Below, piece after piece: positions 4,823-60,030 of a stretch of 64,000 bases of DNA. Each line of letters begins with the position of its first letter. Within the stretch, counting starts at the first letter, position 1. The stretch covers positions 1-64,000 of the forward strand of contig WTXD01000085.1 in assembly GCA_022496205.1 (NCBI GenBank). Reading direction: 5' to 3'. The position numbers and the translations under genes were made by a program. The DNA comes from Gloeopeniophorella convolvens (taxonomy: Eukaryota > Basidiomycota > Agaricomycetes > Russulales). The notes below the pieces were generated by a model, which was not told the DNA's origin, did no database searches, and was given only the letters and a program-made list of their open reading frames with translations.

Positions 4823-7359
<2,537 letters not shown>

Positions 7360-32389: not shown

Positions 32390-32817
32390 ATATCGTGTTT
32401 CTCTCTGTGATCTCGCTAGTCGCATGTCAACCATGGGCACGCCATGTCAATAATGACATTTTACAACGCTTTACTCTGAATCGTCCACTTCAACCCCAAC
32501 GACCACGCGACAGTCCTCCCATGCAGGCCAGATATCTGACTTGGCTCAAAGCCACGGTGTTGGAAAGCGGTCCCCTCACAGTAGGATTCATCAAGGTCTA
32601 TGCTACTGCCTCAGGCCCTGCGCCGTCCTCACTGAATCGAGCCAATTGATGGTCCTCCTGTAATAGCTAGGGAAAGAACGCTGTATTGCAATACATGGTT
32701 AATGCCATCATGATGATGCACAGACTGTATCCTCAGCCCTCTTAGGCCCGCGGGATCGTTCGAGGGCTACAGAAACCCTCTTGCGTACCACCACGCGGCT
32801 CCCTCTGAGCAGCCAGA
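32390..32817 (+). promoter_or_regulatory. 5' flank of NLR gene A, shared with the other copies
   Basis: Two blocks recur upstream of the NLR genes. The distal block (GCCATGTCAATAATGACATT, 32441-32460) matches 39345-39366 (B) and 53791-53812 (D). The proximal block (CTGCCTCAGGCCCTGCGCCG at 32606-32625, then TCAGCCCTCTTAGG and GGGCTACAG...CCCTC up to 32785) matches the regions just before B, C and D. Conservation of non-coding DNA right up to the ATG suggests duplicated promoters or very recent copying. Confidence 0.6.
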
Positions 32818-35800
32818 ATGGCTTCCACACCAGGCATGACTCCCCCGTCCGGATCGTCGCGCCTCAAGTGGCTCTTCGGGGCCGCTTTGAAGGAATATCG
32901 CGAAAATACTGGCACAGACCTGGCGTCCCACCCACTCTACGATCAACTGCAGGCCTGCGAATCTGTTGAAACGGTCATCGACATAGTCAAAGAACAAGCG
33001 CAGGCGTTTGACGAGTACCGGAGGGGCGATCGGGCGACGCAACTCATGACAAAGCTCTTACCACTGGTGGATGCCATCTTGGCTCTCAACGAGGGTCTCG
33101 GAAACACTCTCGACGAAGTATGTCGCAGGCCCGTTTTCTCCATCATAAATATTCGATTGTAGGCTTGCTAGGCATTCAAGCCTGCAAAGTCCGTCTGCGC
33201 GGGAGCCGGTCTCCTTCTCAGGGTGAGTCCTTGAACGTCATTCCCCCAAAGATCTCTGTGACAACTAGATTACAGGCGTCCAAGGGTGTTTCAGAGACCT
33301 ATGACTCTCTTGTTGACCTCTTTGACACAATGTCTCGCTTTCTCGAACGCGTCAAGGTCTACACGCTTATGGAACAAACCCCTCCTATGACCGAAATCAT
33401 GGTCAAAATGATGATAGGGACGCTCGATATTCTAGGGCTTGCGACGGAGGAGGTAAAGCAGGGTCGACTTAGTGAGTGGTATTTGGCTTGGGTGCTTCTC
33501 GCCAATGACCTCAGTGACATAGAGGCTTTTGGGAAGAAACTACTGGGATCGAGGAGGATCGAAGATGTCGTGAAGCGGCTCGACAGACTCACGCTGGAAG
33601 AGGGCCGGATGTCGACTACGCATATTCTCATGATTGTCCACACGCTGTTCGAGAATTTGAAGGGCGTCATGATCAGTACGCACTCCATTGACCTAGCTGT
33701 GAACGCGTCTCATCAATCGTTACTGTACAGATGCAGAAGCCTCCGTAGCTATATCTGAAGATGCTCTCGGTATGAACGCGGATTTCTCGTCTTTACATAA
33801 ACTGATATCGATTTCATGGACCAGTATCCATCAAACAAGTCGTGAATAGCGTGAACAAAGTCGATCGTTCGTTGATATGTTACAATCGCCAGTTACCGCA
33901 TACCTGATGCTTCACCAATCAGGGGACACGCTCCATCAGAAGTGCATCAAATGGCTCTCCCCACCTGACCCTTCACCAAATCACGCTACGAAGCGCAGGC
34001 AGTGTCATCAAGGCTCAACAGACTGGTTCATTCATGGAAATGCGTTTGAAGAGTGGAAGTGGTCAGACAGATCTTTCCTGTGGCTTCATGGAAAACGTAC
34101 GCCTTGTCGTCTTTCGCACGCAGCATCATTTCTCATCGTCTATCATACTTGCAGCGGGATCTGGGAAGAGCGTCCTGTGGTATGCTCTTTACATCTTTAC
34201 CCGTCCAACCTTGTTGATATTCTGGAAACCAGTTCGGCGATGATTGATCACTGCATGCGCTATCTGCACCGTACAGGATTCGGAACCGTGGCCTACTTCT
34301 ACTGTGATTTCAACGATTTTGCGAAACAGAGTTTAGACGGGATTCTCTGCTCAATCCTGGTTCAACTCTGCAAACAGTCAGACTCGTACTTGGAGGTCCT
34401 CTCTCGCTTCCACGCAGAAAACAGGGGCCACCCTCCCACCACTGACACTCTCGGACAATGCTTGAAGGAGATGCTGGGGTTCCCCAACGAAGCCGCAAAG
34501 TATATTTTTGTGGATGGGCTGGACGAATGTCCTGACTACGGCTTGCCATCACCGCGTGGTGAGATTCTTAGCTTCCTGAAGGACATCATCGAAGCTTGCT
34601 TCCCGGACGTCCATATCTGTGTTACTAGTCGTCCTGAGGTTGACGTCAGAGAGGTCCTCGAACGTCCGGCATCATTCCGAGTTTCACTAGAGGAGGAGAT
34701 TGGCCAAGAACACGCCATAGTCAACTACATCGTATCATCTGTTGAATCGCATCCCAAGATGTGCAAGTGGAGCGAGACGATCAAAGAGCTAGTTGTTGAT
34801 ACGCTGAAAAGCAATGCTCACGGAATGTGAGTCGAGCTTGGACCCTAACAACGAGCGGTACTCAAGTTGGTGTTTCATTGACGTAGGTTCCGATATGTGT
34901 ACTGCCAGCTCAATGAGCTGTGCGACCTTCAACCGGCGGCCATCCGCCGTACGCTCAAGACTCTCCCGAAGACGCTGTACGCAACATATGAATCAACACT
35001 TCAGCGGATCCCTGAAGGAAGCTGGGAGTTGGCACACCGCATCTTCCAATGCGTGTCCTTCTCACAGCGTCCACTCCGGATCAAAGAGCTCGCGGAACTT
35101 CTAGCGTTCGATTTCGAAGATGACATCCCTACTTATCACCTCGGGTGGCGCCCAAAGGACGTAAAACACGTGCTGACATTCTGCCCTGGAAGCTTCCTTT
35201 CCGTCGCGAAATCCGGGCATGGAGGTTCGGACGTGCGGTTTGCGCACTCCTCCGTGCGGGAGTTCCTGACTTCAACAATCTTGGAGAAATCCCCAGCAAA
35301 TATCCCCCGCTTCCAGGTCCTCCCAAAGCCTTCCCACGCACTCCTGGCGCAGATCTGCCTCACCACGCTGCTTCAGTTCGGCGTCACTTCCGACAGAGAC
35401 AACATCGAGTCAAAGGACCAAGCTCCTTTTTTTGGTTACGCCGCTGATCGATGATCACTGGCACGTGCATGCCCGATTCGAGGACGTAGCGCTCTTGGTG
35501 ATGGACTCGGCAATAAAGGTGCTCGATCCCACCGGTCCCCACTGCGTAGCTTGGCTTTCACAGGGATATTATTTTCGCCGGGAAGTCACTTCCTTCAGTC
35601 CTACGTCGCAGCTGAGAGGAACAACGTTATATTTCGCAGCACTATGCGGCCTTTGGCTCGTCGTAGAGCACCTGGTGGTATCACGTCCGGGGGACGTTCA
35701 TCAAAGGGGCGGTCATTATGGAACACCCCTTGGTGCGGCATCACACTATGGTCATATCGACACAGCGCGATCCCTGCTCAACCATGGTGCCAATCCAAAT

Positions 35801-36727
35801 GCTCTTGCCGGCCCCAATGGAACTGCGCTGCAGGCCGCGTGTCTTGGAGGGAAGATCGACACCGTCCAGCTATTGCTCGAGCGCGCCGCCGATCCAAATG
35901 CTCCCGCAGGCCCCAATGGAACCGCATTGCAGGTCGCGTCTTCCAAATGGCCCATCAACATCGCTCAGCTACTACTCGAACATGGCGCCGATCCGAATGC
36001 TCCCGCTGGTCCCTATGGAACCGCACTCCAGGTCGCGTCTTCCGAAGGACTGACCGACATCATTCAGCTGCTGCTCCAGTATAATGCCGATCCGAATGCT
36101 CCCGCCGGCCCAAGCGGAACCGCGCTGCAGCTTGCGTCTTTCGGAGGGCATACTGATGCCGTTCGGCTGCTGCTTGAGCATGGCGCCGACCCAAACGCTC
36201 CCACAGACTTCAATGAAACCTCGCCGCAGGTCGCGTGTAGTGGAGGAAAGATCGACATCGTTCGGCTGCTGCTCGAACATGGCACCGATCCAAATACTTC
36301 CGCTGGCACCGACGGAACTGCACTGCAGATCGCGTCTTCTGGGCACAAAGATGTCGTTGAACTGCTACTCGAGCATGGCGCCGACCCAAATGCTCCGGCT
36401 GGCCCCAAGGGAACCGCGCTGCTGGTTGCATCTTCCGGAGGGCATACCCGTATCGCTCAGCTGCTACTTAAGCGTGGCGCCGACCCGAATACTCCCAGTG
36501 GCTTCAATGGAACTGCGCTGCAGGCCGCGTCCTCGAGAGGGCACATCGACATTGTTCGGCTGCTGCTCCAGCATGGCGCAGATGTGAACCGCACCGAGGA
36601 CAGTTGGCGCAGTACCGCATTGCAGGTGGCTTTGCGCGAAGGCCACACCGAAGTTGCACATCTGCTTCAAGCTTCGGGTGGAAGTGATACACCGAGCGGT
36701 GGACCAGGTGACCAGATATTCGAATGA
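32818..36727 (+). pseudogene. NLR gene A: Goodbye-NACHT-ankyrin, frameshifted between NACHT and ankyrin repeats
   Basis: Exons 32818-33117, 33172-33222, 33276-33471, 33523-33675, 33731-33769, 33825-33866, 33923-34096, 34155-34179, 34233-34826 and 34887 onward are in frame. The Goodbye-type domain starts at LKWLFGAALKEYRENTGTDL. The NACHT has GKPGSGKSVL, YIFVDGLDECP and CVTSRPEVD. In exon 10 the frame stops at TGA 35452-35454. Compared with B, C and D, a 7-bp CGATGAT insertion lies in GAT(CGATGAT)CACTGG. After it, about 11 ankyrin repeats continue in another frame to 36727. Unrepaired, the product is a 713-residue Goodbye-NACHT protein with no repeat sensor. It may be a pseudogene, a functional short form or an assembly error. 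No splice event that removes the insertion is apparent. Confidence 0.85.
35700..36690 (+). repeat. ankyrin-coding 99-bp tandem repeats of gene A (about 11)
   Basis: Each 99-bp unit encodes 33 residues built on GTALQVASxxGxxDIVxLLL and HGADPNAPAGP. Two units deviate: one has lost two codons (ALQIASSGHKDVVELLL), and one carries DFNETSPQ in place of the usual GP-x-GTALQ. The frame is open for the whole array although it is out of frame with the NACHT part. Confidence 0.85.
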
Positions 36728-37904: not shown

Positions 37905-38970
37905 GTACCGCCGACGGGCACAGGGAACACGCACCGGCCCCACTGCGTGCCGCAGTACGGGTTCGTCCAAGATGCGACGTCGGTCAGCCGCGCCGCGCCG
38001 GTGCTGTACAGCAGGGGTTCAAGAAGCCGAACGGGAGCTCGCCCTGCGTGGCAAGGGAGTCATTCAGCAGCGAGATCGCGCACGCCGCGCTGCAAGAGGA
38101 CGAAGCCGAGCCAATCGATGCATGGCTCGTTCGTACTCATCGGCGCGTTCTTGTTCGTCCCGAACGGCAGCGAGCTTCCCGTGCTGAAGCACGCCTTCGG
38201 CGTCGGGAAGGAGACCGACCACCTCCGCATATTGAATGTCGGTTTGTCCCCGACGCACTCGGGTCCCCGCCGCTGTTGGCCTGCATGACAGCGCACCTGG
38301 CTGCGGCCGCGTCGGACGGAAACCGCCTCGAAAGCCGTATAGTTTGGTCCAGGCGACTCGCGAACTCGTCAAGGCGGTCCCTGGAGGCCTTGTCGACCTC
38401 GTTCTGTCCCGCGGTGGCCGGGATGTGCGTGGAGGTGCCGTACAGCGCGCTGGCGTGATGCTCGACGGTACGATTGCATCGGAGTAAACAGCTCCGTGGC
38501 AGGAACAGGGCACCGGAACTCAGGCATGATGTCGTGCGGTATGCCGCGGGAGCGAAGGAGTACACTCGAGTGTGCAGAACGGAGGGTGGTGGGCGGTAGG
38601 CTGTACGCTGTCGCGTGCGGGACCGTCTTGCTCGTCTCATGGCGGCGGAAGATGGCGCTGAGCAGCGCGACGGGTGTGCACACAGGCACGCACTCGAGTG
38701 CGAGCTACATGCTACCGTGCGGGGAGCGCAGGCCCTGCGGTGAGAGCTGCGAGCACCGCGAGCCGTTCGTCCACGGGCGCGAACATGTCGACATGCGGCG
38801 GCACACCCGCCTCGGAGAGGTGCTGGCCAGACTACCTGTACACAATGCACACCCACATGAACTGACATCCCGATGCACAAGACAGAAAACGTACTTCTCA
38901 TGCCGTGGGTCGCTGACCACGAATGCATACGGGACATCGGCGTGCGCGATCGACGTCGGGTGGTGGAGGG
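37905..38970 (-). pseudogene. sedolisin (peptidase S53, tripeptidyl-peptidase-like) remnant 1
   Basis: Minus-strand pieces in several frames match the sedolisin order. From right to left: a pro-domain-like scrap; TVEHHASALYGTSTHIPATAG (cf. the start of the mature enzyme, TPACLQALYGIP-x-TPA); DEFASRLDQTI; AVMQANSGGDPSASGT; NEPCIDWLGF; and the C-terminal block AISLLNDSLATQGELPFGFL followed, after a 1-base shift, by LLYSTGAARLTDV and CGTQ. The part that should carry the catalytic Ser motif is missing between NEPCIDW and AISLLND, so this is a broken gene with an internal deletion and frameshifts. Working sedolisins are secreted acid proteases. Confidence 0.7.
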
Positions 38971-39712
38971 CGGTGGCGCGTCTGGGAGGTTCCAGCCTGG
39001 GCATCCCACGGTTCACCTGCGTGTCATCCCGGCTTAGCGCATTGGCAGGAGTGGGTGACGCGCCGGAGGGCGCAACGAGGGTGAAAAGTGTGGCGAATCA
39101 CTGGCAGGAGTACATTAATCACGGTGCCAAGCGAGAGGATGGCCCTTGGGAGACTTGTAGCGCTGAGCATAGGCGCGCTGGGTCGAGGCTGTGGGAGCAG
39201 CTGGCAAGCTGGCAGTCCGCGTCCCGGACTGTCCCGGTAGACCTCGGCAGACTCGTGCGTTCCCGGTTCCGAGACACGTGCGCTACGTCGTCGTATTCCC
39301 TCTTTTCACATCGCTGGCTATGGCTATATATTCAGTCATGGCCGTGCTATGTCGATAATGACATTGTCAACTCTTTATGTCTCCACCTCGCCTTCAGTGA
39401 CCACGTTCTAGCTCCTGTGCAAGCCAGGGCCACGGGCGGTGCTCTCATAGTAGCATTCACAGGCTCAGGCGCCCAATATCAACAACGTTTCAACGTTCGA
39501 ATACCCATATTCATGGCCCATGCCACCGCCTCAGGCGCTGCGCCGTCTTAATTGCGTCGCGCCTGTGTCTGGCTTTCCCGCAATGGAGAAAGGATGCTGT
39601 GTCGTATCTGCTGTGCACAAGCCGTGTGTCTTCAGTACTCTCAGTTGTCGTCGTTCGTGAGCTACAGGAACTCTCACACATACGGCCGCACAACCTCGTC
39701 TGAATCACCAGA
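38971..39712 (+). promoter_or_regulatory. 5' flank of NLR gene B
   Basis: This segment contains the distal block at 39345-39366 (ATGTCGATAATGACATTGTC) followed by GACCACGTTCTAGCTCCTG. The proximal block CATGCCACCGCCTCAGGCGC (39518-39537) runs on to GAGCTACAGGAACTCTCACA (39658-39677). Both are nearly the same as before gene D. The left end is part of the sedolisin remnant zone and holds no intact gene. Confidence 0.55.
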
Positions 39713-42700
39713 ATGGCTCCTACACTAAACATGATATCTCCAGACGACTCGTCGCGCTTCAGGTCACTCTTTGAGGGCGCCTTGAAGGAATACTACGAAC
39801 ATACTGGCACGGACCTGGCGTCCCACCCACTATATGGTAAACTTCGGACCTGCGAATCCGTCGAATCTGTCATCGATGCAGTCAAAGAGCAAGCGCGAGC
39901 ATTTGGCGAATACCGGAAGGGCAATCGGGCGACGCAACTGATGACGACGAAGCTCTCACCCCTCGTGGATGCCATCCTGATTCTCAACGAGGATCTCGGC
40001 AAAACTCTCGGCGAAGTACGTTGCGGTTCCATTTCCCCCAGTACATATATCTAAACGTGGGTTCGCTAGGTAGTTCAACCCGCGAAGATGGTCTGTGCGG
40101 GAGTTGGTCTCCTTCTCAGGGTGAGTCTTCGAACGCCGTGCCCTCCAAAGACCTCCGTGACAATTAGATTGCAGGCATCCAAGGGTGTTTCAGAGAGCTA
40201 CGACTCTCTTGTCGACCTCTTCGACACAATGAGTCGTTTTCTCGAACGCGTCAAGGTCTACACACGCATGGAGCAGACCCCTGCTATGACCGAAATTGTT
40301 ATGAAAATGATGATAGGGCTACTCAATATTCTCGGGCTTGCAACGAAGGAGATCAAGCAGGGCCGGCTCAGTGAGTGACAGCCGACTGTGGAGTATCTCG
40401 TCAATGACCTCAGCGACATAGAGGCGTTCGGGAAGAAACTACTCGGATCAAAGAAGATCGAAGAGGTTGTGAACCGGCTCGACAGACTCACCCTGGAAGA
40501 GGGCCGGATGTCGACTACACATATTCTCCTAATCGTTCATACGCTGCTCGAGAACTTGAAGGGTGTCATAGCCAGTGAGCGACACCCACTTATCGTGCCG
40601 TGAGTACACTTCACGTGTTCATAGACGCAGAAGCCTCGACAGCTACGTTGGAGGACGCTCTCGGTATGAAGAATAACATCTCCCATCTTCCTCTTTCTAC
40701 GAAGCTTACGCCATGGAATGTGTAGCTTCGATCCAGCAGATCGTGGACGACATGAATAAGATCAAACGTTCGTTCACGTATCTCGATTACTGCTGATCGT
40801 ACATCTGAAGCCCGGTCGAACAGGCGACAGGCTCTATCAGGGGTGCACCCAATGGCTCTCCCCACCTGACCCATTTTCGATCCACGCTGCGAAGCGCAAG
40901 CAGTGTCACAAAGGCTCGACAGACTGGTTCATCCACGGAAATGCTTTCGGAGAATGGAAGGCATCAGATAGATCTTTCCTGTGGCTGCACGGAAAACGTA
41001 TGCCTCGTCTTTCGCACACGGCATCGTTTCTCATCGTCTGTCATATTTGCAGCAGGATCCGGGAAGAGTGTCCTGTGGTACGTTCGTTACATCTCCGTCT
41101 ACTCGACCCTACTGATCGTCTAGGAACCAGTTCGGCGATGATCGATCACTCCGTACACCATCTCCGTCGTACAGGACTCGGCACCGTGGCCTACTTCTAC
41201 TGTGATTTCAATGATGCTGCAAAGCAGAACCTAGACGGGATCCTTCGCTCCATCCTGGCTCAACTCCGCGAACAGTCGGACTGCTATTCGGCGATCCTCT
41301 CCCATTTCCACTCAGAGAACAAGGATCATCCACCCAGCACTGATGCCCTCGGACGATGCCTCAAGGCAATGCTGGCGCACCCCGATGAAGCAGCAAAGTA
41401 TATCTTTGTAGACGCGCTGGACGAATGTCCCAACTCTGGGCTGCCATCGCCACGTGGTGAAATCCTCAATTTTCTGAAGGACATCATCGACTCTCGCTTT
41501 CCGGACGTTCATATCTGCATCACTAGTCGTCCCGAGGGCGACATCAGACAAATGCTCGAACGTCCAGCATCATTCCGTATTTCGCTCGAAGAGGAAATCG
41601 GTCAAGAATACGCCATCGTTGACTACGTCGAATCATCTGTTGAATCGCATCCCAAGATGCGTGAGTGGAACAAGACAATCAAGGATCTAGTCATTGATAC
41701 GCTGAAAAGGAATGCTCAGGGGATGTGAGTTGATTCCTGAGTCAAACAATGAGCGGTACTGATGTTTCGTTGATGTAGGTTCCGATATGTATTTTGCCAG
41801 CTCAACGAGTTGTGCGACCTTCATCCAGCGATCATCCGCCGGACTCTCGAGACTCTTCCGAGAACACTCTACGAAACATACGGATCGACACTTCAGCGCA
41901 TTCCCGAGGGAAGCTGGGATTTGGCGCATCGCATCTTCCAATGCGTATCCTTCTCGCAACGCCCACTCTCTGTTGAAGAACTCGCGGAGATTCTCGTGTT
42001 CGATTTCGAAGGAGACACTCCCACTTATCACCCCGATTGGCGTGCAAAGGACGCACAACAAGCGTTGTTGACCTTCTGTCCTGGAAGCTTCCTTTCCATT
42101 GTCAGGACACGCCGGCGTAGAAGTGAAGTGCGGTTTGCACACTTCTCCGTGCAGGAATTCTTGACCTCGACAATCATCGGAGATTCTCCGGCGAGAATTT
42201 CCCGCTTCCAGGTCCTTCCAAGTCCTTCCCACACGCTCCTTGCACAGATATGCCTCACCACGCTGCTTCAAGTCGACGCCACCTCCGACAGACACGACCT
42301 CCTAAAAGTCTTTCCTCTTTTCAAGTATGCCGCCGATTACTGGGACGAGCATACCCGATTTGAGGGTGTGGCGCTCCCGGTGATGGATTCGGCAATAAGG
42401 ATGCTTGATCCCGCCCATCCCCACTGTATAGCTTGGCTTTCGCAGGCGTATCGTTTTGACGAGGAAATCGGTTACTTGGGTTCCGCGCCGCACGTGGAAG
42501 GCACCACTTTATACCTCGCCGCACTCTGCGGCCTTCAGGTCATCGTAGAGCATATAACAGCGTCTCGTCCGAAGCCCGACATTGACAGGGAGGGTGGCTA
42601 CTACGGAACACCCCTCAATGTGGCGTCACATTATGGCCATATCGACACAGTGCGATTACTGCTCGGCCGTGGCGCCAGCCCAAATATCCCTGTTGGCTCT

Positions 42701-43768
42701 GATGGAACCGCGCTGCAAGTCGCGTGTTTCGAAGGGCACATCGACATCGTCCGGCTATTCCTCGACCACAACGCCGACCCAAATGCCCCTGCCGGTCCCA
42801 AGGGAACTGCGCTGCAGATCGCATGTTCCGGTTGGGACCTCGACATCACTCAGCTGTTGCTTGAGCATGGCGCCGATCCGAATTCTCCTGCTGGCCCCGA
42901 CGGAACCATGTTACAGGTCGCGTGTTCCAGGCGGTACACCCGGTTCGTTCGGTTGCTGCTCGAGCACGGCGCCGATCCAAATGCTCCTGCCGGTCCCAAG
43001 GGAACCGCGCTTCAGATCGCATGTTCCGGTTGGGACCTCGACATCACTCAACTGCTGCTCGAGCACGGCGCCGATCCGAATCCTCCCGCTGGCCCCGATG
43101 GAACCATGCTGCAGGCCGCGTGTTCCAGGCGGTACATCCGCTTCGTTCAGCTGCTGCTTAAGCACGGCGCCGATCCAAATGCTCCCGGTGGCCCCGATGG
43201 AACCGCGCTGCAGGTCGCATCTTCCGGAGGGAACATCAACATCGTTCAGCTATTGCTCGACCATGGCGCCAATCCAAATGCCCCCGCTGGCCCCGATGGA
43301 ACCGCGCTGCAGGTCGCGTCTTCCGGGGGGTGGCTCATCCGCATAGTCCAGCTGCTGCTTGAACATGGTGCCGATCCAAATGCCCCTGCTGGCCCCAAGG
43401 GAACTGCGCTGCAGATCGCGTCTTCTTTTGGATGCGCCAACACCATTCAGCTGCTGCTTGAGCATCATGCTGACCCAAATGCCCCCGCTGGTCCTAAGGG
43501 AACCGCGTTGCAGGCCGCATTGGGTGAGTGGGTCAACACCGATGCTGTGAAGCTGTTACTCGTCCACGGCGCCGACCCGAATGCTCCCGCTGGCCCCAAC
43601 GGAACCGCACTCTACATCGCATCACTCCTCGGACACCTAGATATGGTACCCCTTCTGTTACATTATGATGTAGACGGGAACGCCTCGGGTGACAAGCACG
43701 GTACCGCACCGCATATGGCTTTACGTAAAGGCCACACTAGAATCGCGGCTCATTCAACCCTCACGTAG
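39713..43768 (+). CDS. NLR gene B: Goodbye-NACHT-ankyrin STAND protein, intact
   Basis: Ten exons: 39713-40015, 40070-40120, 40175-40370, 40422-40574, 40625-40663, 40726-40767, 40824-40997, 41053-41077, 41131-41724 and 41779-43768, giving 1188 residues. Residues about 12-260 are a helical Goodbye-type domain (FRSLFEGALKEYYEHTGTDL, SYDSLVDLFDTMSRFLERVK). The NACHT NTPase follows, with Walker A GKPGSGKSVL near 320, Walker B YIFVDALDECP near 418 and the TSRPEGD motif. A winged-helix-like region (FRYVFCQLNELCDL) links to about 13 ankyrin repeats from residue 765 to the end. STAND NTPases with this layout act as cytoplasmic sensors: the repeats bind a ligand, NACHT oligomerises and the N-terminal domain signals. 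In fungi several cause heterokaryon incompatibility. The trigger is unknown here. Confidence 0.92.
42605..43740 (+). repeat. ankyrin-coding 99-bp repeats of gene B (about 13), with an internal 198-bp duplication
   Basis: The units at 42803-43000 and 43001-43198 are a two-repeat block copied in tandem. Both contain IACSGWDLDITQLLLEHGAD followed by a repeat with ACSRRY and FV, and they differ by only a few residues (S to P, V to A, T to I, R to Q, E to K). One unit carries an extra residue (SSGGWLIRIVQLLL). The final repeats (ALYIASLLGHLDM, APHMALRKGHT) are more diverged and act as caps. Confidence 0.9.
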
Positions 43769-44183
43769 TATTGATTCACAGCGCGTTGTACTATTACTAT
43801 TGGCGGTTAATCTACTCGAGATCTCGTCTGTCCACCCCTCCCACTTCCTATCCCAAGGATCGACTGTATGTTTTCTGTGTTTCGAGGATACGTACCCTTG
43901 ACGTGCTTGTCGGTTCCATACAGACGCGGAGTCGGGATTATAGCAGGGCTGGCACAATCGATACTGTCTAAGTCAGTTGGCCGGTTGGTCCGTATGCGTG
44001 GGTTGACAATGCCGGTGAGGGCCATGACGAGACCCTGGTGCGAGCGACAACTTTGTGACCACGTCAAGGTTCCTTTCATTCACGAGTGCACAGTGCGCTA
44101 GCTGCGCGTTCTTTGCCCATATTACGTTGTCAGACCTACTAGCTGAGCCCCTCACCATCACCAACCACGATAAGATAACGCAC
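43769..44183. other. 3' flank of gene B
   Basis: Downstream sequence shared in part with the 3' flanks of C and D. Each includes TATTATAGCAGGGCTGG(C/G)ACAATCGATAC (43938-43966 in B, 50692-50720 in C) and a similar, more diverged block after D near 58600-58625. No gene is present. Confidence 0.5.
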
Positions 44184-45259
44184 CTAGTCCCATTCCCTTA
44201 TCGTTGAAAAGCTCGTACCACAGCCCAGGTGCGTCCTGGGCGTGGTGGCAATCACGCCCGTCGCGCCAATGCTGTACAATAACAAGCCGAGGAAACCGAG
44301 CAGCACCTTACTCCGCACAATGGGGAAGTCGCTCCGCAGAGACCACAGCCGCCGCCTGCCGCACCTCGTGTATTGATAAGAGTGTAGAAATAGGAGGAAG
44401 GAACGCACAGGCAATGCACAACCCGTGCCATCGACGCCGCCACCGCGCTCGCCGACGACAATTTGGAAGTTGTGCGCCTGCGCCGCGATGTCGGAGAACC
44501 GACAGCTTGTCGTGCTATTCATGTGTCAGAAAAAAAAGTTAAACGCGGGAGAAAGCAGGCGTACTTGGATGGCCCCGGATCCTTGTCCATCTTAGTCTGC
44601 AGAAAGCTCGTCCTGGTGACTCGAGAGTGCATGTTACTCACCGAAACGGAACGAAGGGAGTGGAACACTACGTGTCTCTTGCACCGCCGCCGCATCCGAC
44701 AACAAGGGGCGTAGAAGTCGACATTGCCGCCAGGCGCACAAGAAGTATCCTCTGAGATGCAACCTCATGGAGCCACAGACTTCCGCCTGCGCTCAGATAA
44801 CACGCTTCGCCTTGAGGTTGTTGGAGGCTGTGCTACGTGGGTGGTGTCGTTAACATATAGGCGGTAGGTGTTCTGACGGTCTTGAAGGGCGCGGTGTGTG
44901 GTGCGACCAGGTGTTGCGAAGGGTTCGCCGGGAATGACATAGGAGTCCTGTGTTGCGAGTGAAAGTCGGAGTGAGGAGCCTGAGTGAGGTAGTGGCAGCT
45001 GGTGGCGGGCGGGAGAGAAAGGGTGCAACATGCAGTGGATGCAGGAGGGACGCGGCTGCCAGACTCACTCCGGCATGCTCCTCGTCTTGAAGACGCCCAC
45101 ACATGATGCGAATGCCCGAAGCGTGCAGATCCGAACTCTGCATTCCTGGAGGATGACGCTTGCACTTTGATGGCGCCGACACCATATCCGAGTCCGAGTT
45201 CGGGCATGCGCAGCCTGAGCACTACTGGCACCTTCTGGTGTCGCGTACACTGCAAAGTA
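44184..45259 (-). pseudogene. sedolisin (S53) remnant 2
   Basis: The minus-strand frame 44184-44522 reads in sedolisin C-terminal order: RFSDIAAQAHNFQIVV, then GGGVDGTGCALPVRSF. The catalytic motif SGTSxS should be here, but its first Ser is Asp and its central Ser is Gly. Next come SLRSDFPIVRSKVLLGFLGL and LLYSIGATGVIATTP, ending with HLGCG. After a gap, pieces of the amino-terminal part follow up to about 45250. The catalytic Ser is lost and frames are broken, so the gene cannot be active. Its right end is cut by the inverted-repeat element. Confidence 0.75.
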
Positions 45260-49700: not shown

Positions 49701-50304
49701 GGCGGCGTTATCCCATGGTCATATCGGCATAATGCGAACTCTCCTCGGCCGTGGCGCCAACCCAAATATCCCCGTTGGCTTTTGTGGAACCGCGCTGCAA
49801 CTCGCGTGTTTCGAAGGGCACGCTGGCATCATTCGGCTGTTGCTCGACCACGGCGCCGACCCAGATGCTCCTGCTGGCCCCAACGGAACCGCGCTGCAAG
49901 TCGCGTGTTCTGCAGGGCGCGTCGACGTCGTTCAGCTACTACTCAACCATGGCACTGACCCCCACGCTCCTGCTGGCCCCAACGGAACCGCGCTGCAAGC
50001 CGCGTGCTTCGCAAGGCGCGTCGACATCGCTCAGCTACTACTCAACCATGGCGCCGACCCAAATGCTCCTGCTGGCCCCAACGGAACCGCACTGCAGGTC
50101 GCGTGTTACGAGGACCGCATTGGCATCGTTCAGTCATTACTCAACCATGGCGCCGACCCAAATGCTCCCGCTAGCCCCGACGGAACCGCCCTCTACGTCG
50201 CATCATCCCACGGATACCTAGATATTGTACACCTCCTGTTACATTGTGGTGCGGACAGGGACGCCCCGGGTGGCAAGCACGGTACTGCGCTGCAGGTGGC
50301 TTGA
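46792..50304 (+). CDS. NLR gene C: Goodbye-NACHT-ankyrin, C-terminally shortened
   Basis: Exons 46792-47097, 47152-47202, 47257-47452, 47504-47656, 47707-47745, 47808-47849, 47906-48079, 48138-48162, 48216-48809 and 48864-50304 give 1006 residues. The Goodbye-type part (FRSLFEAALKEYHENTGTDL), P-loop GKPGSGKSVL, YIFVDALDECP and ITSRPEGD are intact. Only about 8 ankyrin repeats are present. In the last one, GTGGCT is followed by TGA where B and D have TTA, removing about 20 residues of the capping repeat; the old frame stays open beyond the stop for roughly 30 codons. The protein may still fold, so I keep it as a coding gene. Its promoter side was changed by the inverted-repeat element. Confidence 0.85.
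49687..50304 (+). repeat. ankyrin-coding 99-bp repeats of gene C (about 8)
   Basis: Units three to six share long identical stretches (CAGCTACTACTCAACCATGG, CTCCTGCTGGCCCCAACGGA) that also occur in gene D, while residues after ALQVAC vary (SAGRVDVV, FARRVDIA, YEDRIGIV). The array is the shortest of the four. Confidence 0.85.
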
Positions 50305-50940
50305 CGCAGAGGCCACATTGAAATCGCGGCTCTTCTTTCAACCCTCACGCAGAATCGATTCACAGCGCGTTGTCCGATGCTGATTGCTGTTCGGTGAATT
50401 GAGGCAAGAGCTATCTTGTCGCGTGTGTTTTCGTGGTACTGATCATATGCTTAGCCGTTCAACGTTCAAGGACCAAGTAACAGTAGTGGTGGCAAATCCC
50501 AGCCGCCGGCCGGGGAGGTGTCTGGGATATTTGAAGCCTATTCTTACTATTGAGCGCCTGAGCGCCTGTATACTCGAAATTCTGTGCCCACCCCTCCCAC
50601 CCCCGATCCCGAGGACTGACTGTATATGTTTCTGTGTTTCGAGACACATACCTTTGACGTCCCTGTCGGTTCTATGCAGACGCAGAGCCGGGATTATAGC
50701 AGGGCTGGGACAATCGATACCGTCGAAGTCAGGTGATCGCTATGCGTGGGTTGACAATGGCGGCGAGGGTCATAGCGAGACGCGGTGCGAGTGACAGTTT
50801 TGTGACGGCGTCAAGGTTCCTTTCGTTCATGATTGCACGGTGCGTCAGCTGCGCGTTCATTGCTCAAACGTTCAACGTTCATGTTCCATTATCAGCGCTA
50901 CTTGCCGAGCCAATCTACATACTCAACCACCTGTAGCTTA
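50305..50940. other. 3' flank of gene C
   Basis: This segment begins with the former last ankyrin codons and then has blocks in common with the 3' flank of D: GTTCAACGTTCAAGGACCAA (50457-50476) and CAGTAGTGGTGGC followed by AACCGCCGGCCGGG-like sequence. No gene is present. Confidence 0.5.
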
Positions 50941-52100
50941 CCGAGATGAGGTGCCTCGAGCATCGTGACCTACGACCATTCAGTCCCCGCATCACTACCA
51001 AACACGGCAGGAAGACGCACCTTGTCCCATTCCTTGACCATCGGGAAGCTCCGCGTGTCGCAGCCCAGGTCCGCCCCGGACGTGATGGCAATCAAGTTTG
51101 TCACGCCGGTGCTGTACAACAGCGTGCTAAGGAAACCGAGCAGCACCTTACTCCGCGCAATGGGGAAGTCGTTCCGCGGAGACCGCAGCCGCCGCCTGTC
51201 GCACCTCGTGCATTAGTAGAAGTGTAGGAAGAGGAGGAGTGAACGCACGGGTGACGCGCAGCTCGTGCCGTCGACATCGGAAACACGCTCGCCAACGACC
51301 ACTCGGAGGTCATCCGCCTGCGCTGCGATATCAGAGAACTAACGGCTTGTCGTGCTACTCATGAGTCGGAAAAATTGCGGAGCACGCGAAAGGGCAGGCG
51401 TACTTGAATGGCCCGGGATCCTTGTCCATCCTCATCCGGGGAAGCTCGTCTCCGCCGCATCCTGATGACCCGAGGGCGCAGGTTACATGCGACGATAAGG
51501 ACTCAGGAGCGTAGAAGTCGCCATCGCCGTGACTGGGTACGCGAGGGGTCCTCTGAGATGCAAGCTCACAGCGCCGCGGACTCAGCATCTAAGTATGAAC
51601 CACGTACTTCAACATGAGGCCGTGCTACGTGGGCGGTGTTGTCAACCTTTGCCAACACGCGGGCGGCAGGCATACTAACGGTCCGGAAAGGCGCGGTGTG
51701 TGGTAAGACCAGGTGTTGCAGTGGGCTCGCCGAGAATGCATAGAAGGGATGTGTTACGAGTGGGAGTCGGACTGAGGAACCTGAGTGGCTCAGGTACGGT
51801 GGTGGGCGGTGGCGGCCGGGAGGGAGGAAAGGGACACGGCGGCCGCGCCCTGCCATGCCGGACTCAGAACGACGTGGCTGTGACAGACTCACTGTGGCTG
51901 GCATGCTCATCGTCTTGAAGACGCTCATAACGCGAATGCCCGAGACAGGTGCAGATCCGAACTCTGCTTTCCCGGAGGATGATGCTTGCACTTTGGTAGC
52001 GCCGATACCATATCCGAGTCCAAGTTCATGCATGCGCAGCCTGAGCACTGCTGGCACCTTCTGGTGTCGCGTACGCTGCAAAGCACATGCCTCTCCTCGT
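50941..52100 (-). pseudogene. sedolisin (S53) remnant 3
   Basis: The minus strand at about 51020-51190 reads RSPRNDFPIARSKVLLGFLS, then LLYSTGVTNLIAITSGADLG, CDTRSF and MVKEWDK, the C-terminal block of a sedolisin with several wrong residues. Rightward, broken frames continue to about 52100 (GLGYGIGATKVQASS near 52000) and match remnants 2 and 5 closely, including CATCGTCTTGAAGACGC (51908-51924). Stops and frame changes exclude a working enzyme. Confidence 0.65.
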
Positions 52101-52289
52101 CGCGCACGACAACGTCCACGCTATCAACGCCTGTAATATACACTGCATCGTACGGAAAGACAATGGCGCCGCGCGCGAGTGGCCGCTTAACATTGAAGCC
52201 CCCATCTACCCAGAAATCGCCTGGAACCTGCCGGAATCAGGTGTCCCAAGCCCTGTAACCTGCAATCTATCCATGCGTCAGCGCCCGTA

Positions 52290-53731
52290 CCACCACCCAT
52301 CAGCGTAGGAACACGCACCGGGTCCGATCCCTTGACCATGGAGAGGCCCTGCATGTCACAGCTCCGGCTCGTCCCGGACGTGCTGTCGCTCAGGCTCGCC
52401 GTGCCGATGCTGTACAGCAGCGGGTTGAGGATGCCGAGCGGAGGCTTGCTCTGCGTGGTGGGGAAGTCGTTCGGCAGCGAGAGCATCCCCAACGCCGTCT
52501 GCCACGCGCATGCATGCGACCGATCGACTGTGCGGGGTGGGTGCAGGAGGGAGGGAGGAGCGCATGGATGATGCCCCACTCGTGCCGTCGACGCAGCAAT
52601 CCAAAAGTTCTCCCGCGCGGCAGTGTTAGGAGACCCGGGGTCCACCATGCTGCGCAGACGCACTTGTTCATGTCAACCTTCGAGCCGCAGGGGTGCATAG
52701 GAAGACGATACGTACTTGAATAACCCACGTCTCCTGCTCACGCTCGTCCTCATGAAGGCTGTTATAGCCGTATTCTGGTACCTCGGGCGCGCGAAGAAGC
52801 TCGAGAAGCAGCTGCCGCTCAGACTCGCTGCGACTCCGGGGTTGACGCGCATCGTGCCACCAAGCCGTACCGAGGGCCGTCACGAACGGGCCTGTGCGCG
52901 CCAAGGATAAGTCAGTGGCAAATACGCGGCAGAACAACACGGGGGGCGCACGAGAGGCTGGGGGGTTTAGGATGGCCTGCTTGCGGTTCGTTCCGTCATT
53001 CGTCGTGGAGGAGCCGCTGCTACCGCCCGAGTCGCCTCTTGAAAAGAACACGGATATGTCCTGTGCGCCGAGCTGCATGAAGAGCTCGCACATGCTCTGC
53101 GTGTAGTCCGGCGGCATTGTCAGTTCGTTGTCTCCGTGTGATGTGGTCGGCCAGGGGACGACGCGCTGCGAGAGGATGAAGTCGAGCTAATCGAAGCATG
53201 GCTCGTCGGCGTGTTCCCGTTCATCCCAAGAAGCGGCGGGTTTCCCATGCTGAAGCACATCCTCGGCGTCAGGAGGGAAGCCGCCTTCACGTATGAGATG
53301 TCGATTTTCCCCCGACGCACTCGGGTCGTTGTGGTCGTCCTCGCCGCTGTTGGCCTGCATGACAGCGAACTCGGGAGCCGTATCTTTTAGTCCGAGCGAC
53401 TCGCGAACTCGTCGAGGTAACCCCTGGAGGCCTGATGTCGACCTCGTTCCTTCCCGCGGTGGCTTGGATGTGCATGGATGCACCGTACAGTACGCTGGTG
53501 TGATGCTCGACGAGCAGCTCGACGGTACGATTGCATCAGGGTGGGCAGCTCCGCGGCAGGAACAAGGCGCCGGGGCTCAGGCGTGACGTCGTGCGGTACG
53601 CCTGCATAAGTAGTAGTCCTAGTCAGTGGCAGTCCGCGCCCTTCCACGCCCCGGCAGGCTCCGCACGCTTCTGTTTGGGGTCCCAATTTCAGGGTCCTCA
53701 ATCTGGTTTCGTTCTCCGCAGAGACATGCAT
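52290..53731 (-). pseudogene. sedolisin (S53) remnant 4, the most complete copy
   Basis: Recognisable sedolisin blocks in minus-strand order are: an Ala/Thr linker (TQATAGRNEVD, about 53470), AVMQANSGEDD (53350), DYTQSMCELFMQLGAQDISV and FFSRGDSGGSSGS (53030-53110, cf. LGARGVSVxFASGDGGVSGS), GPFVTALGTAWW (52850-52880), the catalytic block VDGTSGASS (52580), and LPNDFPTTQSKPPLGILNPL with LLYSIGTASL (52400-52480). SGTSxS is here DGTSGAS. Frames change between blocks, and some changes could be introns, but stops within blocks indicate a decayed gene. It lies antisense to, and upstream of, gene D. Confidence 0.75.
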
Positions 53732-54168: not shown

Positions 54169-57100
54169 ATGACTTCTACACCAAACGTGATCTCCCCGCC
54201 CGACTCGTCACGCTTCAGGTCACTCTTTGAGGCTGCCTTGAAGGAATACCACGAGAATACCGGCACGGACCTGGCATCCCATTCACTGTATGATAAACTT
54301 CGGACTTGCAAGTCTGTCGAATCTGTCATCAACGCAGTCAACGAGCAAGCGCGCGCGTTTGGCGAGCACCGGAAGGGCGATCGGGCGACGCAAATGATGA
54401 CGAGGCTCTCACCCCTGGTGGATACCATCTTGGTTCTCAATGACGGTCTCGGCAATACTCTCGGCGAAGTACGTTGTGCATCTATTCCCTCCAATACATA
54501 TGTCTAAATGTGGATTCGCTAGGTATTTCAGCCTGCGAAGATTGTCTGTGCAGGAGTTGGTCTCCTTCTCAGGGTGGGTCTTTGAATGCCGTGTCCTCCG
54601 AAGACCTCCGTGACAACCAGAATGCAGGCATCCAAGGGTGTTTCAGAGAGCTATGACTCTCTCGTCGATCTCTTTGACACAATGTCTCGCTTTCTCGAAC
54701 GCGTCAAGATCTACGCGCTTGTGGAGCAAACCCCTCTGATGACCGAAATCATCGTGAAAATGATGATTGGGCTACTCGAAATTCTCGGACTTGCAACGAA
54801 GGAGATAAAGCAGGGTCGACTTAGTAAGTGATAGTCGACTGAGGTGCATCGCACCATTGACCCCGGCGACATAGGGGCGTTCGGGAAGAAACTACTGGGA
54901 TCGAAGAAGATCGAAGAGGTCGTGAAGCGGCTGGACAGACTCACTGTGGAAGAGAGTCGGATGTCGACTACACATATCCTTCTGATCGTCCATACACTGC
55001 TCGAGAACTTGAAGGGCATCATGACCAGTGAGCGACGCCCACCTATCGTGCCTTAAATACATCTCACGTGTTTCCAGACGCGGAAGCTTCGACAGCTACA
55101 TTGGAAGACGCTCTGGGTATGAAGAATGGCTTCTCCCATCTTCCCTTGTCGACGAAGCTTACGCCATGGGCTATGTAGCTTCGATCCAGCAGATCGTGGG
55201 CGACGTAAACAAGATGAAGCGTTCGTTCCCATATTTCGATTAATGTTGGCCGCATATCTGAAGCTTGGCCGAGCAGGTGGCTGCCTCTATCAGGAGTGCA
55301 CGAAATGGCTCTCCCCACCCGACCCATCTTCGAACCACGCTGCGAAGCGCAAGCAGTGTCACGAAGGCTCAGTAGACTGGTTCATTCACGGAAATGCTTT
55401 TGGAGAATGGACGGCATCAGACGGATCCTTCCTGTGGCTGCACGGAAAACGTATGCCTCGTCGTCTTTCACACACGGCATCGTTTCTCATCGTCTGTCAT
55501 GCTCGCAGCGGGATCCGGGAAGAGCGTTCTGTGGTGCGCTTGTTACATATTTGTACACCTGACTCTACTGACCATCTAGGAACCAGTTCGGCGATGATCG
55601 ATCACTGCGTGCACCATCTGCGCCGCACGGGACTCGGAACTGTAGCCTACTTCTACTGCGATTTCAACGATTCTGCAAAACAGAGTCTAGATGGGATTCT
55701 TCGCTCTGTCCTGGTACAACTCTGCAAACAGTCGGACTCGTACTCGGCGATCTTTTCCCGTTTCCATTCAGAGAATAAGGACCATCCACCCAGCACCGAC
55801 GCTCTCGGACGATGCCTCAAGGCAATGCTGGCGCTCCCCAATGAAGCTGCAAAGTATATCTTTGTGGACGCGCTCGACGAATGTCCCAGCTCCGGGCTGC
55901 CATCGCCACGTGGCGAGATCCTCAGTTTTTTGAAGGACGTCATCGACTCTCGCTTTCCGGACGTTCATATCTGCATCACTAGTCGTCCTGAAGGCGACAT
56001 CAAAGAAGTCCTCGAACGTCCAGCATCATTCCGCATTTCGCTCGAAGAGGAAATTGGGCAAGAATACGCTATTGTTAACTACGTCGAATCATCCGTTGAA
56101 TCGCATCCGAAGATGTGCAAGTGGAGTAAGACGATCAAGGATCTGGTCATTGATACGCTGAAAAGGAATGCTCACGGGATGTGAGTTGAACCCTGAGTCC
56201 AACAATGAGCGGTCCTGATGTTTCGTTGACGTAGGTTCCGATATGTGTACTGCCAGCTCAACGAGTTGTGCGATCTTCACCCAGCGACCATCCGCCGCAC
56301 GCTCGAGAATCTTCCGAGGACGCTGTACGGAACATACGAATCGACACTTCAGCGCATCCCCGAGGGAAGCTGGGATATGGCGCATCGCATCTTCCAATGC
56401 GTAACGTTCTCACACCGTCCACTCTCTGTTGAAGAGCTCGCGGAGATTCTGGTGTTCGATTTCGAAGGAGACACCCCCACATATCACTCCGACTGGCGTG
56501 CAGAAGACACACAGCAGGCGTTGTTGTCCTTTTGTCCTGGAAGCTTTCTTTCCATCGTGAAAACGCGCTGGCGTGGAAGTGAAGTGCGGTTTGCACACTT
56601 CTCCGTGCAAGAATTCTTGACTTCGACAATCATTGCGAACTCTGCGGCAAGACTTTCCCGCTTTCACGTCCTTCCAAATCCTTCCCACATACTCCTCGCC
56701 CAGATCTGCCTCACCACGTTGCTTCAAGTCGACGACACTTCCGACAGAGGCGCCCTCTCAAAAGCCCTTCCTCTTCTTCATTACGCCGCCACTTCCTGGT
56801 ATGAACATGCCCGATTCGAGGACGTGGCACTCTCGGTGATGGATTCAGCAATCAGGGTGCTTGATCCCGTCTATCCCCACTGTGTAGCTTGGCTTTCACT
56901 GCAGCCTTTTTTTCACGATGAGCTCAATTACTGGGGTTCCGCGTCGCACTTGGAAGGCACCACCTTATACCTCGCGGCACTCCACGACCTTCAGCTCGTC
57001 GTAGAGCATATAGCAGCATCGCCTCCGGCCCCCGACGTTGACAGAGAGGGTGGTTACTATGGAACACCCCTCAATGTGGCGTCACGCCATGGTCATATCG

Positions 57101-58215
57101 ACACAGTGCGATACCTGCTCGGCCATGGTGCCAATCCAAATGTTCCCGCCGGCTCTGGTGGAACCGCGCTGCAAGTCGCGTGTTTCAGAGGGCACACCGA
57201 CATCGTTCGGCTGTTTCTCGACCGCGGCGCTGACCCAGATGCTTCTGCTGGCCCTGACGGAACCGCGCTGCAAATCGCGTGTTTCGAAGGACACACCAAC
57301 ACCGTTCGGCTGTTGCTCGACCGCGGTGCCGATCCAGATGCTTCTGCTGGCCCTAACGGAACCGCGCTGCAGGCCATGTGTTCCGAAGAGGACATTGACA
57401 TCGTTCAGCTGTTGCTGGAGCATAGTGCCGATCCCAATACTCCCGCTGGCCCTGAGGGAACCGCGCTGCAAATTGCGTGTTTCAGAGGGCAATCCGACAT
57501 CGTTCAGCTATTACTTAACCATGGTGCCGACCCCAATGCTCCTGCTGGCCCTAGGGGGACCGCGCTGCAAACCGCGTGTTTCAGAGGGCAAATCGACATT
57601 GTTCAGCTATTACTCAACCATGGTGCCGACCCAAATGCTCCTGCTGGCCCTGAAAGAACAGCGTGTTTCAGAGGGCAACTCGACATCGTTCAGCTATTAC
57701 TCAACCATGGCGCCGACCCCAATACTCCTGCTGGCCCTCAAGGAACTGCGCTGCAGGTTGCATGTTCTCATGGGCACCTCGACATCGTTCAGCTATTACT
57801 CAACCATGGTGCCGACCTAAATGCTCCCGCTGGGCCCAACGGGACTGCACTGCGGGTCGCGTGTTCCAAAGCGTTCGTCGAAATCGTTGTGTTGCTGCTC
57901 GAGTATGGCGCCGAACCGAATCCTCCCGCTGGCCCCGATGGAACCGTGCTGCAGGTTGCATGTTCCAGGTGGGACACCGACATCATCCAGCTACTGCTCA
58001 AGTATCGCGCCGATCCGAATGCTCCCGCTGGCCCCAACGGAACTGCCCTCTACATCGCATCGTCCCTCGGATACCTGATTACCGTTCACCTTTTGTTAAA
58101 TTACGGTGCGGATGTGAACGCCCCGGGTGGCGAGCACGGTACTGCATTACAGGTGGCTTTATACAATGGCCACACTGCAATCGCAGCTTTGCTTTCAACC
58201 TTGACGCGACATTGA
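54169..58215 (+). CDS. NLR gene D: Goodbye-NACHT-ankyrin STAND protein, intact
   Basis: Exons 54169-54468, 54523-54573, 54628-54823, 54875-55027, 55078-55116, 55179-55220, 55277-55450, 55509-55533, 55587-56180 and 56235-58215 give 1184 residues. The Goodbye-type domain covers about residues 15-260. The NACHT has Walker A GKPGSGKSVL near residue 320, YIFVDALDECP near 417 and CITSRPEGDI near 453. The helical linker region (FRYVYCQLNELCDL onward) precedes about 13 ankyrin repeats from about residue 767 to the end. Repeats 6-9 are almost the same at DNA level, and repeat 8 lacks four residues (PAGPERTACFRGQ). All introns are 50-58 nt and match those of A-C. Expected to be a soluble cytoplasmic sensor whose ligand is unknown. 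Confidence 0.92.
57061..58190 (+). repeat. ankyrin-coding 99-bp repeats of gene D (about 13)
   Basis: Four consecutive units carry CATCGTTCAGCTATTACT(C/T)AACCATGG with hardly any changes (about 57490-57810), which points to very recent duplication or conversion. One of them has lost 12 bp in frame. Variable codons cluster just after ALQVAC (FRGQS, FRGQI, FRGQL, SHGHL, SKAFV, SRWDT), the part of an ankyrin unit that forms the ligand-facing surface. Confidence 0.9.
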
Positions 58216-58989
58216 TTCACGGCGCAGTGTCTGACACGGGTTACCGGTTCAGATCCTGGTTGATGAGGCGGTGTAATGAGGTAAGAGCCACCTTGCTGTG
58301 TATGTTTTGGTGGCGCTAATCGTATGCTTAGCCATTCAACGTTCAACATTCAACGACCAAGTAACAGTAGTGGTGGCGAATCCTAACCGCCGGCCGGGAG
58401 GAGCCCCGAGTACCACTGAAGATTGGAAGCCTTACTATCATGTACTATACGAGTGATTTGTCTACTCGAAATCTTGTGTGCCCACTCCCTCACCCTCCGA
58501 CCCCCATTTCGAGGACGGACTGTATGTTTTCTGCGTTTCGAGGCCACGTACTTTCGACCTTGCGTGCTTATCAATTCTATACCGCCACAAAACTAAAATT
58601 ATGGCAGAACTGGGACAATTGATACTGCTAAAGTCAGTTGGTTGCCATGCGCCGGGTTGACGATGGCTGCGGGGGTCATGGTTGTGAGGTTTCCGTGGCT
58701 CAAGACCAGATGGTGTTGCCCGTCGAAGTAAGGAGGGATGATTCCATTTGTTTACACAGTCGTGTGTCAAACGGTAAGGAACAAAAGAGTGTACGCCACG
58801 ACTGATCTATGTCCGATATCCTTATCTTATCACTGTCCGACGATCATGATTCCAACAATGGTGAGGTCCTCGGGCGAGCGACAGGGCCCATGTGACCACG
58901 CCGAGGCTCCTTTCGTTCACGATGCGCATGGTGCGTTGTCCATGTTCCATTGTCAGCGCCACTAGCTGAGCCATTCTACATACTCTACC
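58216..58989. other. 3' flank of gene D
   Basis: Sequence related to the flank after C (TTCAACG, CCAAGTAACAGTAGTGGTGGCGAA at 58358-58381, CCGCCGGCCGGGAGG). No gene is seen. Confidence 0.5.
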
Positions 58990-60030
58990 ATCTGTAGCTT
59001 AACAGAATAAGGCGCCTCGAGCTGTAGCCTGCGACCATTCAGCCATAGCACCACCACCCACCAGAGCGCGGAAACGCACCTTGTCCGGAACCCACTCCTT
59101 GACCGTCAAGGAGCTCCGCGTGCCGCAGCCCAGGTGCGTCCCGGACGTGATGGCAATCACGCCGATCGCGCAGATGTTGTACAACAGCATGCCGAAGAAA
59201 CCGAGCAGCAGTTTTCTCCACGGGATGGGGAAGTGGTTCCGCAGAGACCGCAGCCGCCGCCTGTTGCACCTGGTGGATTTGTAGAAGTCTGGGAAGAGGA
59301 ATGAACGCACAGGTGACGTGCAGCTCATGCCCGATAACCACCAACGCGCTCGCCGACGATAATTCGGAAGGTGTCTGCCTGTGCTGTGATATGGGAGAAT
59401 CAACGGCCTGTCGTGCTGATCGCACGTCAGAAAGACCTGCATAGCACGGGAGAGGGCAAGCATAGTTGTCTATCCTCATCCGCAGGAAGCTCGTCACCGC
59501 CACGTCCTGGCAACTTGAGAGCGCAGATTACCCACTGAAGCGGAGCCCAGGAATGGAGCACGCCGTGCTTCCTACATCGCCGCCCCGTCCGACGACAAGA
59601 AGCGTAAAAGCCGGCACCCCCGCTAGGCGCGGAAGAGGCGTCTTTGGAGATGTAAATTCACAGCGTCACTAACTTCCGTCTGTGCCCAGGCCACATACCT
59701 CGACTTGAGGTTTTTGGGTGCTGTGCTATGTGGGCGGTGCCGTCAGCATACAGGCGGCAGGTGCCCTAACAGTCTAGAAGGGCGCGGTGTGATGTAACAG
59801 GCGTTCGGAGGGCTCGCCAAGAACTACATAGAAGTATTGTATTGCGGCCGGAAGTCGGACTGGGGAGCTTGAGTGAGGCATAGTGGCGGGTGAGAGGGAA
59901 GGGGTGCAGGAGCGCGCGGCTGGCTCGAACATGCTCATCGTCTTGAAGACGCCCATGACGCGAACACGACGGCAGGTGCAGATCACTTTGTTTTCTTGAA
60001 ATTGCCTGCACTTTGGTGGCACCGAGAAGC
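58990..60030 (-). pseudogene. sedolisin (S53) remnant 5, last unit of the array
   Basis: The minus-strand frame at 58999-59463 contains SGMSCTSPVRSFLFPDF in the place of the catalytic block, then RSLRNHFPIPWRKLLLGFFG, LLYNICAIGVIAITSGTHLG and CGTRSS, in sedolisin C-terminal order. Further right, scraps match remnants 2 and 3 up to CATCGTCTTGAAGACGCCCA (59936-59955) and GTGCAGATC (59977). Similarity stops near 60030, which I take as the right edge of the duplicated array. Confidence 0.7.

Follow-up and report, generated by a model that had tools for sequence, protein, structure and literature searches.

Goodbye-NACHT-ankyrin receptor genes in tandem with decayed S53 protease copies in Gloeopeniophorella convolvens

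Gene models and domain anatomy

The window analyzed here is a 64,000-nucleotide stretch of DNA from the crust fungus Gloeopeniophorella convolvens (Basidiomycota, Russulales; assembly GCA_022496205.1, contig WTXD01000085.1, hereafter C389, positions 1 to 64,000 of the forward strand). Between positions 32,390 and 60,030 it contains a tandem array of four genes, designated c1 to c4, that resemble NOD-like receptor (NLR) genes and combine a Goodbye domain, a NACHT-type nucleoside triphosphatase (NTPase) and ankyrin repeats. Comparison of the window with itself reveals four collinear plus-strand copies with 75-85% DNA identity. The spliced model of each copy consists of ten exons separated by GT-AG introns of 50-62 bases, and exons 2-9 measure 51, 196, 153, 39, 42, 174, 25 and 594 bases in all four. 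These shared sizes are no independent oddity, as they are expected of paralogues whose proteins are 74-88% identical pairwise. A first-pass annotation, made from the letters of the window alone, had described four same-strand genes with a common domain order and equal sizes for exons 2-9; the self-comparison and the spliced models agree with it for every copy. Its account of two open genes, one frameshifted and one shortened also holds.

The open genes are c2 (39713..43768; 10 exons, 1188 residues) and c4 (54169..58215; 10 exons, 1184 residues). The shortened gene, c3 (46792..50304; 10 exons, 1006 residues), has a short ankyrin array resulting from fewer repeats and an early stop. The frameshifted gene, c1 (32818..36727), is open through exons 1-9 and broken in exon 10: its first frame runs from 32818 to 35454, giving 713 residues up to a stop, and a second open frame of 485 codons in total reaches 36727, with the break lying near a T homopolymer. 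A public model from the same species (P0002, hypothetical protein BC834DRAFT_669981) coincides with c3 over the first 733 of its 773 residues, which independently backs the start codon and splicing of that gene. Among the best 120 of 759 matches no public model corresponds to c1, c2 or c4, for which the top identities are 75, 85 and 87%.

For the upstream domains, Pfam profiles were run on the spliced proteins truncated to their N-terminal 525 (c1) or 609-611 (c2-c4) residues. All four score 55-66 bits for Goodbye and 129-138 bits for NPHP3_N, a NACHT-like NTPase profile (cut-off 24.8 for each). The NACHT profile itself exceeds its own cut-off in three of the four, c3 reaching 26.3 against 26.7. 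Ank lies far above its cut-off in the last exon of every copy, and for c1 it is found in the second frame, behind the frameshift. The Walker A motif HGKPGSGKS, the Walker B motif FVD(A/G)LDEC and the TSRPE motif are intact in all four. Goodbye, NACHT and Ank, as named by the first-pass annotation, were thus all recovered, and the identification did not fail on profile searches. With an N-terminal effector-type domain, a NACHT-type NTPase with intact motifs and C-terminal repeats, c1 to c4 are fungal NLRs, that is, receptors of the signal transduction ATPases with numerous domains (STAND) class.

In c4 the Goodbye domain (residues 20-146) is encoded by exons 1-3 (54169..54823) and the NACHT/NPHP3_N NTPase (profile match 291-460) by exons 7-9 (55277..56180). 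The P-loop HGKPGSGKS is divided between exons 7 and 8, and the Walker B motif FVDALDEC and TSRPE lie in exon 9. A six-frame search of the genome with the Goodbye profile returns only two exon pieces, none of them in the window, because introns split the domain; the spliced models were used instead. The two pieces (L001 and L002) lie on contigs C90 and C11, both of which carry further NLR clusters.

In predicted structures the NTPase core has a STAND-like fold that aligns in fold searches with the plant and animal NLRs NRC2, Sr35, Apaf-1 and NOD2, although identity to these is 10-15% and their sensor and effector domains differ. The N-terminal region is modelled as helical, with low confidence before residue 250. 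Alignments to plant resistosomes start at model residues 122-152, but the root-mean-square deviation is ~20 A over the whole alignment. Neither fold search has an MLKL or HeLo structure among its best 50 rows, which says little, as the Goodbye domain was not folded alone. A sequence search of the PDB with P0002 gives no match at E values of 1 or below. A model of the c4 last exon computed without an alignment has a mean predicted local distance difference test (pLDDT) score of 44.4, too poor to map variable repeat positions.

Decayed proteases and spread of the family in the genome

The spacers of the array contain pieces of a second gene family, all on the minus strand and therefore antisense to the NLR genes. 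The first-pass annotation had noted remnants of another family here; they are indeed present and decayed, and their identity as S53 sedolisin proteases can be added. One remnant, interrupted by stops, lies between c1 and c2 (37943..38983). A truncated C-terminal remnant with a stop lies between c2 and c3 (44172..44516). Two occur between c3 and c4, the first a truncated C-terminal piece with 3 stops (50925..51371) and the second a longer piece with stops and two frames (52209..53614). The last, a C-terminal piece after c4 (59056..59451), is a weak match (E 5e-4) that is truncated and has no internal stop. Stops, frame changes or truncation thus affect all five. No S53 family was reported by Pfam in the open reading frames tested in the window, and the name rests on homology to a gene on contig C223 with a Pro-kumamolisin profile, whose 588-residue product (P0121) is a full-length relative from the same genome.

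Pieces of the S53 family also lie near NLR copies on contigs C223, C359 and C57. Since S53 pieces accompany NLR copies at these places as well as in the window, the duplicated unit is most likely an NLR gene together with a protease gene in the opposite orientation. A functional pairing of receptor and protease was considered and dropped, because all five protease copies of the window are broken or truncated (beyond the window, P0121 was the one copy checked). In a literature search on sedolisins and tandem fungal NLRs, none of the 10 papers listed has the word sedolisin, which is no proof of absence.

A fifth copy, c5, lies beyond the window in inverted orientation at contig positions 72757-76709. 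Its exon 4 is frameshifted, the site homologous to the start codon lacks an ATG, and its last exon is open over 633 codons with a long ankyrin array, so that two of the five copies on the contig (c1 and c5) are frameshifted. A tree built from 14 loci unites c2, c3 and c4 (99/99), adds c5 next (96/96) and places c1 outside; four rows from C223 form a group with C225 (87/87), with the fifth C223 row (206k) outside. The separate clades of c2-c5 and of the C223 copies indicate that expansion has been largely local. Evidence for gene conversion among c1-c5 is limited to one of ten pairs (c4-c5, p 0.032), which is not significant after correction.

A genome search with the NACHT exon gives at least 83 matches, or at least 78 loci once pieces are merged. 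After removal of 9 loci on 8 contigs that duplicate larger contigs, at least 69 loci remain, these counts being lower bounds. Clusters, defined by neighbours <40 kb apart on distance alone and with no count of intervening genes applied, take in 49 of the 69 loci and number 13. The NACHT exons of c1-c5 lie within 41 kb with a largest step of ~19 kb and so fall within the <40 kb distance used for NLR clusters in PMC12258605, where a cluster needs two or more NLRs and neighbours have fewer than eight non-NLR genes between them. In Sordariales, 602 of 2349 NLRs (26%) are clustered at <40 kb, and paralogous copies make up 16 of the 272 clusters (PMC12258605). The spacing is alike in both cases, but clusters built of paralogues are rare in that group, whereas the present array consists of paralogues throughout.

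No near-identical second version of the array was found in the assembly. Nine NLR loci elsewhere are present twice, with 97.4-99.8% identity between the two versions; these pairs were chosen from the NACHT-exon matches by equal or nearly equal scores, so that further pairs may exist. The two versions may represent alleles of the two dikaryon nuclei or assembly redundancy. Two of the nine differ, each by a transposon within the NLR gene. On C225 (L012, 1-825) the last exon is interrupted by the 3' end of an element with an A run, and the C223 version (L011) is uninterrupted. On C199 (L023, 2249-2937) a 690-base element is inserted that has TA on each side and imperfect inverted repeats at its termini; the C350 version (L024) lacks it. 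The C225 insert is presumably related to long interspersed nuclear elements (LINE-like), the classes of both inserts being assigned from sequence hallmarks. The other seven pairs are collinear over the ~3.1-3.6 kb compared, apart from small indels, and in all seven the count of strict ankyrin motifs is equal between members, though only five have any such motif. Two of the pairs, C171 and C106, have single-base indels that resemble sequence error, and the frameshifts of c1 and c5 may therefore be errors as well.

The window also includes a GMC oxidoreductase exon (5475-6155, Pfam GMC_oxred_N), an exon of a SLAC1/TDT-type anion channel (14037-14750, Pfam SLAC1) and, bordering the array, a long open frame for which no Pfam profile exceeds its cut-off (60322-61647). 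Between c4 and c5, open frames at about C389:66297-68009 resemble, by eye, a mitochondrial NDUFAF7-type protein. Further along, C389:79217-84000 holds two similar open frames (L061, about 5217-6155 and 9101-10000), which by eye resemble a tandem pair of PQ-loop membrane proteins.

Selection on the receptors and variation in their ankyrin arrays

Selection was assessed from the ratio of nonsynonymous to synonymous substitution rates (dN/dS). Between pairs of c1-c4 this ratio ranges from 0.14 to 0.27 across exons 1-6 and from 0.15 to 0.20 across exons 7-9, at a dS of 0.32-0.73. In exon 10 it is 0.16-0.42 over the first 180 codons and rises to 0.33-1.31 in the linker that follows, the ~80 codons before the repeats. 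Divergence amounts to 0.28-0.31 substitutions per site in three spacer segments and to 0.20-0.23 in introns among c2-c4. The proteases and receptors have therefore had a comparable time in which to decay, and it is mainly the receptors that have kept their frames. Judged by these sequence comparisons, selection has retained the Goodbye and NACHT frames of the NLR genes while the co-duplicated S53 genes decayed, which is the best evidence available for use of the NLR genes.

These values bear directly on whether the array is simply a family in decay, largely without function, that segmental duplications have spread as passengers. Such a history would account for the frameshifts in c1 and c5 (two of five copies), the short c3 and the broken or truncated S53 copies next to them. 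It is nonetheless a very improbable one: ratios of 0.14-0.27 at the observed synonymous divergence, open frames of 1188 and 1184 residues and NTPase motifs intact in four of four copies need selection, and the breaks in c1 and c5 could be errors of assembly.

Tandem Repeats Finder (TRF) delimits an ankyrin array in each gene: c1 has a 99-base period (35774..36583), c2 a doubled unit of 66 residues whose two versions are 89% identical (42694..43520), c3 about 4 units (49786..50189) and c4 about 9.5 units (57116..58043). For comparisons among units, 68 repeats were extracted, 3 spurious ones (one of them in c5) were dropped and, of the 65 kept, the 38 from C389 were used; units with indels are missed by this procedure. 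Within c1-c4 the units have a mean pairwise identity of 52-60% and are 70-74% identical to the consensus. Highly conserved repeats are defined in PMC4986451 as those >85% conserved over 100 residues or more. By a measure of the present analysis, which differs from the program used there, the c2 66-mer pair reaches 89% over 132 residues, and runs of three repeats match their own consensus at 87% in c2, 88% in c4 and 91% in c5 (the last over 99 residues). The very similar repeats of the first-pass annotation are thus found locally, but not across the arrays as a whole.

The nearest relative of a unit lies in the same gene for 15 of the 38 units, where 7.1 are expected (p 0.012), a modest sign of within-gene exchange of repeats; for the remaining 23 it lies in another gene. 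Entropy peaks at repeat positions 10, 33, 12 and 21 (calculated from 39 units, one of them spurious). These features are relevant to the idea that the array is an allorecognition (somatic incompatibility) locus whose alleles differ in ankyrin repeats and copies among conspecific mycelia. Some fungal NLRs do govern the outcome of fusion (PMC12881547), and the local doublings in c2, c4 and c5, together with the excess of same-gene neighbours, fit such a role. Allorecognition is nevertheless unlikely here, as the arrays are not highly conserved overall, most units are closest to a unit of another gene, the locus pairs sampled elsewhere in the assembly have no difference in repeat number, and allorecognition is not the role of most fungal NLRs (PMC12881547).

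Proposed mechanism and relation to known receptors

The best explanation, to which a probability of roughly 0.6 is assigned, is a locus-specific expansion of fungal NLRs in which sensing falls to the ankyrin repeats, switching to the NACHT module and signalling to the Goodbye domain, with duplication of a receptor-protease cassette and decay of the proteases. Apart from what domain anatomy and selection show, each step of the mechanism is borrowed from the family scheme, in which the repeats are the sensor, NACHT is a switch that oligomerizes, and the N-terminal domain is the signalling or executing part (PMC4986451, PMC9815663, PMC12881547). The ankyrin array would sense a ligand, which might come from a microbe or a virus or might be a fungal protein that is altered or non-self. 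Its binding would free the NACHT module for nucleotide exchange and oligomerization. Oligomerization would then cluster the helical Goodbye domains, which may themselves be a membrane-directed effector of cell death, or may act on one, in the manner of HeLo/MLKL bundles. New copies would be born by tandem duplication of the NLR and S53 cassette and would diverge fastest in the linker and the ankyrin arrays, and some would die. A putative recognition role is plausible on these grounds.

Three observations qualify such a role. First, the copies are not recent, because dS between c1-c4 is 0.32-0.76 over the three parts compared. Second, overall conservation of the ankyrin repeats in c1-c4 is not high and stays below the 85% level of PMC4986451. 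Third, of the 33 positions of the repeat, position 10 alone rises above the mean synonymous rate (1.12, interval 1.04-1.23), with synonymous sites near saturation (mean proportion of synonymous differences 0.59). The birth-and-death immune locus proposed by the first-pass annotation stands in part: the tree, the frameshifts in two of five copies and the transposons in two of nine locus pairs support local expansion and decay, but the copies are not recent, their repeats are not highly conserved overall, and the other seven locus pairs are collinear over the stretches compared.

The domain order matches that of Goodbye-NACHT-ankyrin NLRs of other Agaricomycetes, including the Russulales Amylostereum, Russula, Lactarius and others, and by eye most of the best 120 of 759 homologues have the Goodbye, NACHT and Ank profiles. 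Among these 120, homologues from outside G. convolvens are only 26-45% identical, and the subfamily at ~80% identity is seen in the G. convolvens genome only. The HNWD and PNP_UDP-NACHT-ANK proteins of Podospora anserina are likewise STAND NLRs with repeat sensors, and the ankyrin NLRs of that species have polymorphic repeat numbers and positive selection at concave-face positions (PMC4986451). Those families differ from the present one in their N-terminal domains, in the WD40 repeats of HNWD and in the repeats selected for study, which were >85% conserved (PMC4986451), compared with 52-60% pairwise here. HeLo/MLKL-type domains have a four-helix core in common with Goodbye-like domains; they differ from Goodbye in its N-terminal extension, and killing activity of Goodbye is not established according to PMC9815663, which treats the role of Goodbye-like domains as an open question.

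A function in stress, secretion or development is a further alternative, modelled on the NACHT protein Ncp of Penicillium herquei. Unconventional secretion depends on Ncp, for which NACHT is the only domain annotated there, and features of cell death are suppressed when it is depleted (PMC13311144). In the text of that report the word 'Goodbye' does not occur and 'ankyrin' appears once, with reference to another gene, so that the same architecture is not shown there; moreover, many divergent sibling copies would fit a sensor repertoire better than a single regulator. A regulatory role of this kind is accordingly rated as quite improbable.

The receptor type is already known in fungi; what is new is the NLR and S53 cassette with its decayed protease copies. 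This cassette and a five-copy paralogous NLR cluster in a basidiomycete are the features above routine. A bolder proposal, so far doubtful, is that the array is a basidiomycete non-self recognition locus of five sibling receptors, which follow a changing ligand through reshuffling of their ankyrin arrays, both within a copy and from one copy to another. Models of somatic incompatibility in basidiomycetes lean on work in ascomycetes (PMC8229728). If the proposal were true, mushroom-forming fungi would have in this array a concrete molecular candidate for somatic incompatibility or for the sensing of parasites. The exact genes and arrays are in any case named for following across isolates. The co-duplicated S53 genes serve as a built-in neutral yardstick: with sibling receptors each beside a decayed protease of similar divergence, selection on the NLR frames can be judged from one genome.

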